This document shows positions 6,055-44,858 of a stretch of 64,000 bases of DNA, piece by piece. Source of the DNA: Fusobacterium ulcerans ATCC 49185 (lineage in GTDB: Bacteria > Fusobacteriota > Fusobacteriia > Fusobacteriales > Fusobacteriaceae); contig NZ_LR215979.1 in assembly GCF_900683735.1 (NCBI RefSeq), positions 1,178,001 to 1,242,000 of the forward strand, read 5' to 3'. Numbering within the stretch: position 1 is the stretch's first letter; every line of letters starts with the position of its first letter. The notes beneath the pieces are model-generated. The model did not search any database. It saw nothing but the letters and a program-made list of their open reading frames with translations, and was not told the origin of the DNA. The position numbers were made by a program, and so were the translations under genes.

Positions 6055-6468
6055 TCACAAGCTTTTTTCAGAATTTTCCACTTCATTTTTACCTTCAGTT
6101 TCAGATATAGTAGGTAATGCAAAACCTATACGTCTAGCTGGTTTGGATTTATCTTCTCTTTCTACAAAAGTAATTAAAAAGTTAAGCTGGCTGATATGTT
6201 GTATTAATTGAGCTTCCTTTCCATCTACAAATCCATAAAAATATAGAATATCTGGATTCTGATAGCCAATATCTGTAACTGACATTACAACAGAAGAACC
6301 AAAAGATGCAAGCTTTAAAGCAACCTCATGATCATCATCAAGTATTTCTTCAAATTCTCTGATTTGTTCTACTAGTTTTTCATATTTCCAGTCTGCCATA
6401 TTATAATCACGTGGCAGTACATCCTCTTCTATAACATTTGGTAATTTATATTTCTTATGTTTACTCAT
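6055..6468 (-). CDS. uncharacterised 137-aa protein (DUF6173-like)
   Basis: The core (FGSSVVMSVTDIGYQNPD, about 64-81, then YGFVDGKEAQLIQHISQLNFLI) resembles a family of small bacterial proteins that I believe is DUF6173; that name is from memory and uncertain. A later PARRIGFAL block (about 113-121) also fits. No catalytic motif, signal or membrane segment is visible. The start at 6468 follows a strong AGGGAGGATTT site; the longer frame from 6489 has none. It appears to be monocistronic. Confidence 0.7.
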   Translation of the reverse strand: MSKHKKYKLPNVIEEDVLPRDYNMADWKYEKLVEQIREFEEILDDDHEVALKLASFGSSVVMSVTDIGYQNPDILYFYGFVDGKEAQLIQHISQLNFLITFVEREDKSKPARRIGFALPTISETEGKNEVENSEKSL

Positions 6469-21732: not shown

Positions 21733-22443
21733 TCACCACTCTAATCTATTTTTAGCTATTTCTAAAGCTTCTAGAGATTTATCTATCCCTATAAAATTTC
21801 TGTTTAGCTTTTTACAAGCTACTCCAGTAGTTCCACTACCCATACAAAAGTCTAAAACTATATCTCCTTCTTTTGTATAAGTTTTTAATAGATATTCTAA
21901 TAACTCCACAGGTTTTTGAGTACTATACACTGCAGGATGTGGTTCTTTAAATTCTAAAAGTTGTTTTGGATACTTCAGATTGCTTTCTCTGTCCGTTCTT
22001 TTAAAATTATTATAAGTAGTTCCTATATTTTTGTTTGTTCCTAATGCTTTGCCTACTTTATGTGGCTTAATTCCTTTTTTCATAATCGGGCTATAGTAGC
22101 ATTGCTTTTTATAAAATACACATATTTCCTCTATATCTCGCAAAGGCTGTTTTTTAGCATTAAGATGTCCTCTTCCTCTTCCCTTTTTCCAATACCAGCT
22201 ATATTTATAATTTTTGATATTACTAGAAATTAAAATGCTTGTGTAAGGCTGGTTTGACATCAATATTATAGGAGTGTTATTATCTACTATCTTTTCTATA
22301 GACAGCCATAATTTTTCTAAGTTAAAAGGAATATCCCATTTATTTCTAGTTATACCTTGTGGTATATCTGCTATAATACAATCTACTTTTATTTTAATTT
22401 TTTTTAGTTCTTCAATAGCATCTCCATGTATTAAAGTTATCAT
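21733..22443 (-). CDS. phage DNA methyltransferase (N4/N6 class)
   Basis: The 236-aa protein has the AdoMet motif DFCMGSGTTGVA (about 203-214) near the C-terminus and an N-terminal catalytic region, the permuted (beta-type) order. The catalytic motif IV, usually (D/N/S)PP(Y/W), reads ADIPQG (about 26-31), which is unusual and could affect activity. TQKPVELLEYLL is the conserved motif before motif I. The ATG at 22443 overlaps the TGA of the preceding ORF and has AAAAGGAG. It probably protects phage DNA from host restriction. Specificity cannot be inferred. Confidence 0.85.
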   Translation of the reverse strand: MITLIHGDAIEELKKIKIKVDCIIADIPQGITRNKWDIPFNLEKLWLSIEKIVDNNTPIILMSNQPYTSILISSNIKNYKYSWYWKKGRGRGHLNAKKQPLRDIEEICVFYKKQCYYSPIMKKGIKPHKVGKALGTNKNIGTTYNNFKRTDRESNLKYPKQLLEFKEPHPAVYSTQKPVELLEYLLKTYTKEGDIVLDFCMGSGTTGVACKKLNRNFIGIDKSLEALEIAKNRLEW

Positions 22444-22532
22444 TTTAATCTCCTTTTTAACCATTCCCAAAGCGATAATCTAATTCCTGTATAATTATTA
22501 TAGATATTTCCATATTTTTTAATTTTTTTCAT
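22440..22532 (-). CDS. 30-aa basic peptide overlapping the methyltransferase start
   Basis: GGAGGAGGAT precedes ATG 22532, which encodes MKKIKKYGNIYNNYTGIRLS then LWEWLKRRLK. Its TGA shares bases with the methyltransferase ATG (ATGA overlap). It is likely a coupled small gene. Function is unknown. Confidence 0.5.
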   Translation of the reverse strand: MKKIKKYGNIYNNYTGIRLSLWEWLKRRLK

Positions 22533-32336: not shown

Positions 32337-32444
32337 ATGAAAGTAATAATAATAACAGGAGTAATGATAATAATGTTGTTTATGGCAGCATACAAATTAA
32401 TAGACAAGGCATTTGAGGAGATGGAGAAGTGGGACAAGGAATAA
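32337..32444 (+). CDS. 35-aa membrane peptide, twin of the one at 8619
   Basis: TAGGAGGGAAAG precedes ATG 32337. One helix (IIITGVMIIMLFMAAYK) is followed by an acidic tail. It has the same length and layout as the chromosomal peptide at 8619-8726. Its end overlaps the RusA start by 16 bases. Confidence 0.6.
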   Translation: MKVIIITGVMIIMLFMAAYKLIDKAFEEMEKWDKE

Positions 32445-32791
32445 AACAAGAATACCTAATACCTTTTAGGCCTCCAACAGTAAATACTTACTGGCGGAGA
32501 TCTGGAAAAAATATACATCTTTCTGAAAAAGGGACAGCTTTTAAAAGAGATGTAAAAAATTTTATGAGAACCCAAAAAAATAAAAAATTAAGTAGTGAAC
32601 CTCTTGCTGTAGAACTTATATTAAATTTTAAAGGTAAAACTAAAAGGGATATAGATAATTACTGTAAGGGGATACTAGACAGTCTTACAGGGATATTGTG
32701 GGAAGATGACAGCCAGATTATAAAGTTAAACATAGAAAAGAATATAGGAGAGAAAGAGGACAACTTCATATTAAGAGTGCAGGAGGTATGA
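32429..32791 (+). CDS. rusA: RusA-family Holliday junction resolvase
   Basis: The 120-aa endonuclease carries the conserved PPTVNTYWR near the N-terminus and RDIDNYCKGILDSLTGILWEDDSQI (about 71-95, with the catalytic aspartates). It resolves four-way junctions in phage recombination and packaging. It starts at GTG 32429 behind GAGGAGATGGAGAA and lies in the rightward early operon. Confidence 0.92.
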   Translation: MGQGIKQEYLIPFRPPTVNTYWRRSGKNIHLSEKGTAFKRDVKNFMRTQKNKKLSSEPLAVELILNFKGKTKRDIDNYCKGILDSLTGILWEDDSQIIKLNIEKNIGEKEDNFILRVQEV

Positions 32792-32985: not shown

Positions 32986-33153
32986 ATGATATACCTTTGT
33001 AGAAAGTGCAGAAGATTTTTAGCAAACATAAAAACAGAGAAAAATTTGTATTTAAAGGGTAAGTCTATAATAGTGCAAGGGGAAGGAATAGAAATAACCT
33101 GTAAATGTGGAGAAAAAACACTAATAAGCCTTGCAAACAATAAAAAAGAATAG
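32986..33153 (+). CDS. Com-like zinc-ribbon regulator, 55 aa
   Basis: Two cysteine pairs (CRKC at 5-8 and CKCG at about 39-42) frame a small zinc ribbon, with LCRKCRRFLANI and ITCKCGEKTLISLAN matching the pattern of Mu Com-type proteins. In Mu, Com binds the mRNA of the DNA-modification gene mom and turns on its translation. Here the next gene is a Dam-type methylase behind an RNA hairpin, the same arrangement. AGGAGGTATAAGTAC precedes the start. Confidence 0.65.
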   Translation: MIYLCRKCRRFLANIKTEKNLYLKGKSIIVQGEGIEITCKCGEKTLISLANNKKE

Positions 33154-33197
33154 TATAATTTAAGAAATTAAATAAATTGAAGGTACCAAGCAACATT

Positions 33198-33257
33198 AAA
33201 GGAGCCAAGAACTAACTATGTAGGAAACTATATGGTTTGTTTTTCGCTCCTTTTTTT
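33198..33257 (+). promoter_or_regulatory. two-tier hairpin with GAAA tetraloop before the Dam gene
   Basis: An outer 8-bp stem (AAAGGAGC, 33198-33205, with GCTCCTTT, 33246-33253) encloses a 10-bp inner stem (AACTATGTAG with CTATATGGTT, some G-U pairs) capped by GAAA. Seven T residues follow, then the methylase ribosome site at 33265. It may be a terminator/attenuator or a Com target. Confidence 0.7.
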
Positions 33258-33273
33258 GTTTTTAGGAGGAAAA

Positions 33274-34170
33274 ATGAGCAAAATAAAAGTTCCCTTCCCT
33301 TATATGGGAAGCAAAGGGCGATTTTATAAAGAAATAAAAGAAGTATTTATAGAGAATAAAAGAGAAAACTTTATAGATTTATTCGCTGGAGCTATGGAAG
33401 TACCAGTAAATTTAAAGGTAGAGTTTTCAGATTTGAATGTAGAAGCAAATGTTAAAGATTGTAAAATAGAGGCTCTTATAAAGCATAAGGATGTATTTAA
33501 GCTTTATGAAAGAGCGTTAACATATGTATGTGGGCAAATAGATTTTAAAAGTTCTAGAAGCCTTTATGATACAAACAGAGCAAAATTCGACGAAATAAAT
33601 ATAAAATTTAAAAGTATATTCCAGAATGTTTGCCCTTGCTGTGGTAAAAAGATAGATAACAATGTAGAAAATAAAGAATTTTCTGAAGATGAAAAGGAAA
33701 TTCTAAAAGCATTAATGGGGTTTGGTGGAAAAGGGGAAAGTCTTTCCAATACTTTCTATAGCATAGCAAAGGCAGAGAAATTTAAAGGGTACATTGATGG
33801 AATTAAAAAACTAAAGGTACATTTTAAAGAATTTGATGAGACTTGGGAATATAAAGATAGTTTTATATTTTTAGATCCTCCATATATCCAAAAGACAAAA
33901 CTAGATAAAGAACAAAATTTTGTCGGGTATGGATATGCAGGAGACGGAGGAAAAGAGTGGGGATTAAAAGATGATGATAGACTAATAAAGTTTATAGAAA
34001 ATAATCTAAATAAAAATAATGTATTCCTAATATTTGGAAGTGCAGAAAATAATCTAAAAAAGCTTATAGAGAAAAATTTTAAAAATGCAGAATTTTCAGA
34101 GAAAATTTATAAATTCCAAACTTTTGGGAAAGTAACAGACAGATTGGAATGGTTCTGTTTAATAAAATAG
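33274..34170 (+). CDS. Dam-type DNA adenine N6-methyltransferase
   Basis: The 298-aa D12-class enzyme starts at 33274 behind GGAGGAAAA. Motifs: PFPYMGSKGR (about 6-15), an AdoMet motif IDLFAGAMEV (about 36-45) in place of the common FxGxG, and catalytic FLDPPYI (about 206-212). A CPCCGKK segment (about 126-132) suggests an inserted zinc knuckle. It likely protects phage DNA. The recognition site is not predictable. Confidence 0.88.
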   Translation: MSKIKVPFPYMGSKGRFYKEIKEVFIENKRENFIDLFAGAMEVPVNLKVEFSDLNVEANVKDCKIEALIKHKDVFKLYERALTYVCGQIDFKSSRSLYDTNRAKFDEINIKFKSIFQNVCPCCGKKIDNNVENKEFSEDEKEILKALMGFGGKGESLSNTFYSIAKAEKFKGYIDGIKKLKVHFKEFDETWEYKDSFIFLDPPYIQKTKLDKEQNFVGYGYAGDGGKEWGLKDDDRLIKFIENNLNKNNVFLIFGSAENNLKKLIEKNFKNAEFSEKIYKFQTFGKVTDRLEWFCLIK

Positions 34171-34197: not shown

Positions 34198-34953
34198 GTG
34201 GCAAGGATAAGAGATCCAGCAAGGGATAAAGCGAAGGAGTTATATCTAAATAACAAAGATATTACAAATAGAGAGATAGCAAATATCTTAGGAATAGATG
34301 AAAAGAAAGTAGCAACTTGGAAATATAGGGATAAATGGGAATGTAATACAGAAGAAAAAAAGAATGTAGTACAACAAAATAAAAAGTGTAGTACTACAAA
34401 ACCAAAAGAAGAGAAAAAAGAATTGGTTTCCAATGAAGATAAAGGCTATGAATGGGTAGATGAAGAGGACGGATTGACTGATAAGCAAAGACTTTTCTGT
34501 CATTATTATATGCAATCTTTGAATGCTTTTCAGGCAGCTATAAAGGCAGAATATAGTCCAAGTTATGCAAGAGTTGATGTATATCGTCTCCTAGAAAATC
34601 CTAGCATAAAAAAATATTTAGGGAAATTAAAAGAGCAGCAAAAACAAGATTTCCTTATCTCCCAAGAAAAGATTCTTAATCGTCACGTTCAAGTGGCTTT
34701 TTCGGACATAAATGAGTATTTTGAGGAAAACGGAAGCTTAAAACCTTTATCAGAAACAGATGGAAGCTTAATTAAAAAGCTAAAGATAACAGAAACAGAA
34801 GAAAGAAGGACTGTGGAGATAGAACTTATAGAGAAATGTAAATCTTTAGACGCTTTGACAAAATGGGTAGGACTTGATCCAGTATATCAAGATAAAAATA
34901 AATCTAAGAATGAAACACCAGTGTTTAAAGGTAGTGATGACCTTGAAGACTAA
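34198..34953 (+). CDS. terminase small subunit
   Basis: The 251-aa DNA-recognition subunit begins at GTG 34198 behind GAGGTGGTGAT. The N-terminal helix-turn-helix (LYLNNKDITNREIANILGID, about 16-36) precedes the terminase_2 domain (LTDKQRLFCHYYMQSLNAFQ to ENPSIKKYLGKL). It binds the packaging site and recruits the large subunit, whose start lies within its last codons. Confidence 0.92.
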   Translation: MARIRDPARDKAKELYLNNKDITNREIANILGIDEKKVATWKYRDKWECNTEEKKNVVQQNKKCSTTKPKEEKKELVSNEDKGYEWVDEEDGLTDKQRLFCHYYMQSLNAFQAAIKAEYSPSYARVDVYRLLENPSIKKYLGKLKEQQKQDFLISQEKILNRHVQVAFSDINEYFEENGSLKPLSETDGSLIKKLKITETEERRTVEIELIEKCKSLDALTKWVGLDPVYQDKNKSKNETPVFKGSDDLED

Positions 34954-44428: not shown

Positions 44429-44821
44429 ATGAGAATATTAGGGATTATACTATTGATAATAGGGATTCTTAGCTTATTGTTAGGTGGGGGAGCAGTAGGA
44501 TTCTTTATTATAATAGTAGGAATCGTTTTAATGTTAGTTGGAGGCAGTGGAGCAAAGGACAGAAAAATTGCTGAAGAATCTAAAAAAGAATTAGAAAAAA
44601 TTCAGGAAAATCAAAAGAAAGAAAAAGAAATAACAGAAGAAAGAGAAGTATATATAGCAAAAAGGACAAAAGAGTTAATGGACACAAAAGACTTATCTAT
44701 TTTAGAAGCTAAAGCACAAGCTGAAATGGAATATATCCTTGAGCAGAATGAAAAAAATAGTGAGAAAAAAAATAGTGAAGAAAAAGAAAGAAAAATACAT
44801 TATAAAATAGATCTCAGGTGA
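44429..44821 (+). CDS. membrane-anchored coiled-coil protein
   Basis: The 130-aa protein has two hydrophobic helices near the N-terminus (about 2-18 and 22-39, glycine-rich) and then a long charged coiled coil to the C-terminus. It has its own promoter (TTGACT at 44366, 17 bp, TAATAA) and terminator, so it is probably expressed in the lysogen. Possible role in superinfection exclusion is only a guess. Confidence 0.6.
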   Translation: MRILGIILLIIGILSLLLGGGAVGFFIIIVGIVLMLVGGSGAKDRKIAEESKKELEKIQENQKKEKEITEEREVYIAKRTKELMDTKDLSILEAKAQAEMEYILEQNEKNSEKKNSEEKERKIHYKIDLR

Positions 44822-44837
44822 AAATCTGAGGTTTTTA
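44811..44837 (+). terminator. terminator hairpin
   Basis: ATCTCAG pairs with CTGAGGT around GTGAAAAT, followed by TTTT. It overlaps the stop codon of the coiled-coil gene. Confidence 0.7.
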
Positions 44838-44858
44838 CTTTTTTGTTAAAAATAAAAC

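Follow-up and report, generated by a model that had tools for sequence, protein, structure and literature searches.

In phage lambda, the Q gene occupies the slot of the last early gene, adjoining RusA, and is followed by a terminator and the late operon. The layout of early gene, terminator and late operon follows PMC6606751. In phage Xp10, P7 turns on the late genes by bypassing the intrinsic terminators before them, and it plugs the RNA-exit channel of the polymerase (PMC6624301). Our comparison with Com of phage Mu and the com-mom leader is based on PMC6483171. A Com-type gene beside a DNA methylase is already known from coliphage Chuche and Pseudomonas phage Phipami28 and is not new. In the literature that we searched, which was mostly non-subscription, it is undescribed how Fusobacteriaceae phages turn on their late genes, and searches on late control in these phages, RNA motifs and zinc-ribbon antiterminators had nothing on a module of a Com-like protein and a hairpin among the papers listed.

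The DNA analysed here, referred to as the window, is a stretch of 64,000 nt from the 3.84-Mb genome of Fusobacterium ulcerans ATCC 49185. The prophage within it reads from left to right and contains a repressor-like gene, early genes, a RusA resolvase, a small ORF, a Com-like gene, a hairpin, a D12 methylase and the terminase genes (Table 1). The order from RusA to terminase is like that of lambda Q and its terminator tR', and the same junction is found in relatives. What is conserved is the combination of a Com-like gene and a hairpin where early and late genes meet in Fusobacteriaceae prophages. From the sequences, we tentatively propose, with a chance that we judge to be a little below even, that the hairpin and the Zn-ribbon protein encoded by the Com-like gene together control the late genes from the position that Q and tR' hold in lambda, most probably by antitermination. 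Unlike Q, the protein is a small, unrelated Zn ribbon without a match to the Q family, and it is accompanied by a conserved RNA element; the features recognised in the window include neither a Q-binding element nor a pause promoter. Xp10 P7, likened here by description only, has a similar layout and shares the proposed bypass of a terminator before late genes; it differs in that a specific RNA hairpin accompanies the protein in the present case.

Table 1. Features at the early/late junction of the prophage, in window coordinates
Feature	Position	Strand	Basis
RusA-like Holliday junction resolvase, close to early-region end	32429..32791	+	PF05866 E 5.2e-20, phrog_34 E 8e-28
Com-like protein, 55 aa, Cys4 (CxxC, ~30 aa, CxCGE), subfamily 2, proposed late regulator	32986..33153	+	ORF with AGGAGGT upstream
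Promoter-like TTGCAA-17-TATAAT at 3' end of Com-like gene, putative	33131..33159	+	10/12 consensus bases; chance frequency
Three-stem hairpin, GAAA loop, terminator-like, proposed late-operon gate	33198..33253	+	-28.1 kcal/mol, z -9.1
U tract UUUUUUUGUUUUU	33251..33263	+	Sequence; first three U paired within stem
Methylase Shine-Dalgarno sequence AGGAGG	33264..33269	+	Sequence
D12-class adenine DNA methylase, 298 aa, first gene past hairpin	33274..34170	+	PF02086 E 1.3e-8
Terminase small subunit, packaging genes begin	34198..34953	+	PF03592 E 5.2e-34

The initial annotation had placed a Com-like gene, a hairpin with a GAAA loop and a methylase in a row, with a T run just before the ribosome site, and both the coordinates and the fold confirmed this arrangement. 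The hairpin, 56 nt between the gene of the four-cysteine protein and the D12 methylase, is predicted to fold into three stems at -28.1 kcal/mol compared with a shuffled mean of -8.6 kcal/mol (z -9.1; 0/200 shuffles as good), and z is -4.4 when it is folded in a 121-nt context. The 8-bp outer stem (AAAGGAGC/GCUCCUUU) and the 10-bp inner stem (AACUAUGUAG/CUAUAUGGUU) of the earlier description are both there, although the hairpin is not two-tiered, as a third stem of 6 bp (AAGAAC/GUUUUU) lies between them; the stems are separated by C.C and U.U mismatches. The T run covers 33251-33257 and 33259-33263. A stable hairpin with a U tract directly after it has the features by which an intrinsic terminator is recognised; the output of a simple terminator scan did not include this hairpin, whose stem is interrupted. 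As a background, we used 411 terminator-like hairpins, taken from both strands of 400 kb of this genome (20 segments of 20 kb each), among which 7/411 had -24 kcal/mol or lower and 8/411 had a GNRA loop. At the window hairpin, Rfam 15 gave only matches far below the gathering score. A promoter scan produced 44 promoter-like matches vs 45.8 expected, which is the chance level, and demonstrated no late promoter. If the 5' arm of the hairpin is blocked, its 3' side and the Shine-Dalgarno sequence with the start codon are predicted to form a 16-bp alternative helix (33235-33279).

Among described proteins, Mu Com comes closest in appearance and layout, albeit the Com family test fails. Like Com (PF10122), the Com-like protein is small, has four cysteines and is encoded directly ahead of a DNA-modification gene, with a hairpin near the target start; it is unlike Com in having CxC for the second CxxC, a longer inter-knuckle loop and no PF10122 match. 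Cysteines C5, C8, C39 and C41 are invariant in 14 aligned Com-like sequences, spaced as CxxC and CxC, and would bind zinc. None of the 14 members (0/14) matched PF10122 at E<=0.1, whereas Mu Com and two relatives did. In hhalign, the first CxxC knuckle alone aligned with the Com profile (probability 72, 22 columns), and one of the 14 members weakly matched the Com PHROG, phrog_6417 (E 0.073). The resemblance to Mu Com in the initial annotation thus stands for the small four-cysteine protein and the similar layout, but not for membership in the Com family. The window protein had no match in Pfam or NCBIfam, either to Q or to another antiterminator family, and only weak matches to unnamed PHROGs. 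The AlphaFold model (pLDDT 83.7) is all-beta except for a short C-terminal turn, and a fold search of the PDB found 0 matches at E<=0.001 (best E 0.88). The gene arrangement also differs from the described cases. In Chuche and Phipami28, a Com-type gene likewise precedes a DNA methylase, but the two genes overlap and Com matches PF10122, whereas a 120-nt gap with a terminator-like hairpin separates them here. Compared with Mu com-mom, the genes are non-overlapping, the start codon is not part of the hairpin, which carries a U tract, and other Com-like members precede terminase or lysis genes.

A single-sequence search identified 14 Com-like matches in 11/61 family genomes, the window included, and a profile search identified 21 matches in 14/98 phylum genomes, all within Fusobacteriaceae. 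Of these 21 genes, 14 belong to subfamily 1 and six to subfamily 2, and one is divergent. Protein-only searches missed most relatives, giving 0 loci in genome contigs and 1, 3 and 1 loci in viral contigs; phage records gave no match by tblastn with the window protein or by blastn with a locus carrying the R1 hairpin described below. The IMG/VR contig carrying the Com-like gene of the window is identical to the window at 6165/6165 bases and is therefore no independent evidence. In the protein tree, carriers of R1 are split from carriers of the second hairpin type, R2, by one change, with weak support (73/87); the tree left out four hits that are second, more distant Zn-ribbon proteins. Second small four-cysteine proteins, distant matches of the Com-like profile, are encoded in the same prophages at L055:5661-5861 and by an ORF ending at L024:2964.

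The methylase next to the hairpin scores 35.3 bits with PF02086 (cut-off 22), which identifies it as D12 (Dam-type). Its relatives in phiRTG5 (39%), G028 (47%) and an IMG/VR contig (90%) are all without a Com-like gene, and among four distinct methylase loci (window, phiRTG5, G028, L224) the window alone has one. The methylase occurs at only two places in the 61 family genomes, one of which is the window, and the other Com-like genes of the profile search are therefore without it. In phiRTG5 and G028, a hairpin with a U tract precedes the methylase, after a different small gene. The methylase is an incidental neighbour and not a conserved partner of the Com-like gene. A Com-Dam switch as a conserved unit, as suggested by the initial annotation, was rejected on the basis of this 1/4 count. 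An ORF on the opposite strand of the window (21733-22470, -) resembles a second DNA methylase by eye.

The evidence for a protein-hairpin pair is strongest in subfamily 1. Before any pattern was imposed, a hairpin was found within ~130 nt in 12/21 Com-like loci, with a GNRA loop in 9/12 vs 8/411 in the background. Most GNRA hairpins at the loci found by protein share the tail UUUAUUUUUUG. The covarying GNRA hairpin, R1, lies downstream of the Com-like gene in 14/21 loci, all of subfamily 1. In the alignment of 15 distinct R1 hairpins, 93.3% of cells are paired vs 76.6% when shuffled, and 8/15 pairs have changes on both sides; these pairs were counted on a plain MAFFT alignment with rows L055, L064 and L075 shifted by one, which lowers the count. 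The covariation score is 0.596 vs 0.256, with 0/500 shuffles as high and slid controls lower. Stem covariation, the check proposed in the initial annotation, is strong for R1 with subfamily 1. Because about a quarter of the R1 pairs are G.U, the constraint acts on RNA. A mid-stem G.U wobble stands 7 bp below the GNRA loop in 15/15 hairpins. Rfam 15 had no match at E<=1 in 12 R1 loci, and no known RNA family for the hairpin was found there. The pairing also bears on whether the conserved stretch is a DNA linker for the exchange of phage modules. It does lie at a module border with neighbours varying on both sides; however, compensatory changes and G.U wobbles that preserve pairing are needless for a DNA linker, which makes this explanation very improbable.

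A covariance model of R1 gave 14 hits of at least 51.7 bits in the 61 genomes, the next at 41.9 bits (a gap of ~10 bits), and 14/14 strong hits lie downstream of a Com-like gene on the same strand; 13/14 match training sequences, with G001 outside the training set, and many R1 carriers are related to one another. A pattern describing the hairpin alone matched 12 IMG/VR viral contigs, representing 8 distinct hairpin cores, with a Com-like gene in 12/12. Among 85k species, such a pattern matched 58 stretches, of which five fold properly, three identical copies included; a Com-like gene accompanies exactly those five and 0/53 others. Both patterns imposed GNRA and the 3'-arm UCU, while the 5'-arm G of the wobble was left free. 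With the pattern for family genomes, in which UCU was not imposed, 13/21 matches were Com-linked and had UCU in 13/13, whereas the eight not Com-linked had it in one, and that one in no such hairpin. The seven Com-like genes without a strong R1 comprise all of subfamily 2 (n=6) and the divergent member, whose GAGA hairpin scores 28 bits. Because loop, mid-stem wobble and tail are constrained beyond the need of termination and occur with one subfamily only, the Com-like protein may well recognise the hairpin, that is, bind its RNA.

The window itself belongs to subfamily 2 (window, L019, L020, L022, L027 and L030; n=6), whose alignment includes some members as the shorter loci L003, L004, L013 and L015. 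The R1 covariance model does not detect the window hairpin. Instead, R2, a longer hairpin different from R1, lies directly before the first late gene in 5/6 subfamily-2 loci, between +47 and +1837 relative to the Com-like stop. R2 hairpins have -24.0 to -32.8 kcal/mol and a U tract, and they end 20-41 nt before the first late gene (20 nt in the window, 20-41 nt in the four others). A hairpin of -24 kcal/mol or lower at the late start in 5/6 loci compares with about 0.14 expected from the background. L030 lacks such a hairpin over 2.6 kb, and at L163 a divergent Com-like gene has no hairpin after it. The five R2 loci are too few and too divergent to align, and the covariation figures cover R1 alone. 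A weak match of the R1 model elsewhere in the window (44795-44857; 28.0 bits, E 0.0077) is within the background range of most genomes.

R2-type hairpins are also found ahead of late genes where no Com-like gene is present (phiRTG5, G028, G027:C1:1507234 and G001:C15). The pairing at the window is therefore weaker, which is the main weakness for the window, and a plain junction terminator is possible there. We considered this explanation for the family as a whole: the hairpin just ends the early operon, the Com-like protein has another job, such as DNA binding or host takeover, and the junction is shared by gene order. A hairpin followed by a U tract has the classic form of a terminator, long hairpins of a similar kind stand before late genes lacking the Com-like gene, and other prophages have ordinary terminators at the junction (L157, L159). 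Terminase_2 was found at 13 places in the 61 genomes; three already had a Com-like gene, and among the 10 upstream regions fetched, 1/10 had a Com-like gene and 2/10 (L158, L164) had, close to the start of the late genes, a hairpin at or below -20 kcal/mol, both without a Com-like gene. However, termination alone would not require phages with unrelated late genes to keep a GNRA loop, a G.U wobble at the same stem height and a constant tail, strong R1 hits occur solely alongside the Com-like gene, and the two protein subfamilies pair with different hairpins. We regard an ordinary boundary terminator as a somewhat unlikely explanation.

A different small gene (46-59 aa) occupies the Com-like slot before long hairpins at L018:3759-3911, L017:2412-2591 (-), L158:4764-4901 and L164:2315-2468. 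These genes look alike by eye, with GWxEVKIxNGYI in L018 and L017, and the two that were scanned had no Pfam match.

The comparison with com-mom raises another explanation, in which the protein binds the leader hairpin and governs ribosome access to the first late gene. A Shine-Dalgarno sequence was found in 18/19 loci, in these 10-36 nt past the hairpin end, which is consistent with such translational activation, as is the predicted refolding of the window, where the ribosome site is captured by the 3' arm once the 5' arm is blocked, its unpaired probability dropping from 0.70 to 0.00. The alternative fold is not general, however: upon blocking the 5' arm, the predicted accessibility of the ribosome site drops from 0.4 or more to less than 0.2 in only 6/18 loci. 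Moreover, the first ORF of at least 50 aa starts 141-255 nt past the hairpin start in 6/16 R1 loci. In the predicted native fold of the window, the ribosome site is mostly free, and the methylase ATG at 33274 is outside the hairpin, which ends at 33253. The supposed opening of the methylase start is thus not upheld, and we consider translational activation unlikely.

The arrangement of the junction shows that the late operon is adjoined by the hairpin and not by the Com-like gene. In G001, G002, G006, G008 and G009, 0.5-3.7 kb of mostly cargo genes lie between the two. The late operons behind the hairpin include at least three unrelated terminase types (Terminase_2, GpA and TerL_ATPase), and the first late gene varies by phage, being a methylase, a terminase or lysis genes. 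This arrangement speaks to autoregulation, in which the protein would bind its own mRNA at the terminal hairpin and limit rather than activate read-through. In 9/21 Com-like loci, the GNRA hairpin is within ~130 nt of the stop codon, so that gene and hairpin could share a transcript; by contrast, in the five genomes with the long gap the hairpin remains with the late operon. We rate autoregulation as quite improbable.

Antitermination, which the initial annotation had raised as a possibility, would be the most economical mechanism for a conserved protein-hairpin pair. In the lysogen, the hairpin with its U tract would serve as an intrinsic terminator at which early or leader transcripts stop short of the late operon. 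Once the phage enters lytic growth, the product of the last conserved early gene, the Com-like protein, would target either the RNA of the hairpin or the polymerase that arrives there, and transcription could then carry on into the methylase, terminase or lysis genes, which gives the protein a presumably activating role. For the window, with subfamily 2 and R2, we infer the late-control role from position and kinship. On sequence grounds, this could be a new class of phage late switch, in which a Zn ribbon 50-60 residues long admits polymerase to the late operon by recognising the terminator hairpin that precedes it. The two partners would have co-diversified, subfamily 1 with R1 and subfamily 2 with R2, and the switch would be shared by phages whose packaging machines are unrelated. 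We hold this broader proposal as possible, at rather less than an even chance. A protein-RNA pair recognisable by sequence is a candidate late switch and a marker of the early/late border in Fusobacteriaceae prophages.

The hairpin also helps to find cargo, because defence genes lie in the gap between the Com-like gene and the hairpin in some loci. In G008 (L021:8475-11003), this gap holds an ABC-three-component set (CTD10, middle component 6 and an LmuB/PDC-M68B-like ATPase), which is likely anti-phage defence cargo. At the same position in an IMG/VR contig, L057:450-1133 has a PADLOC 'cll' match.
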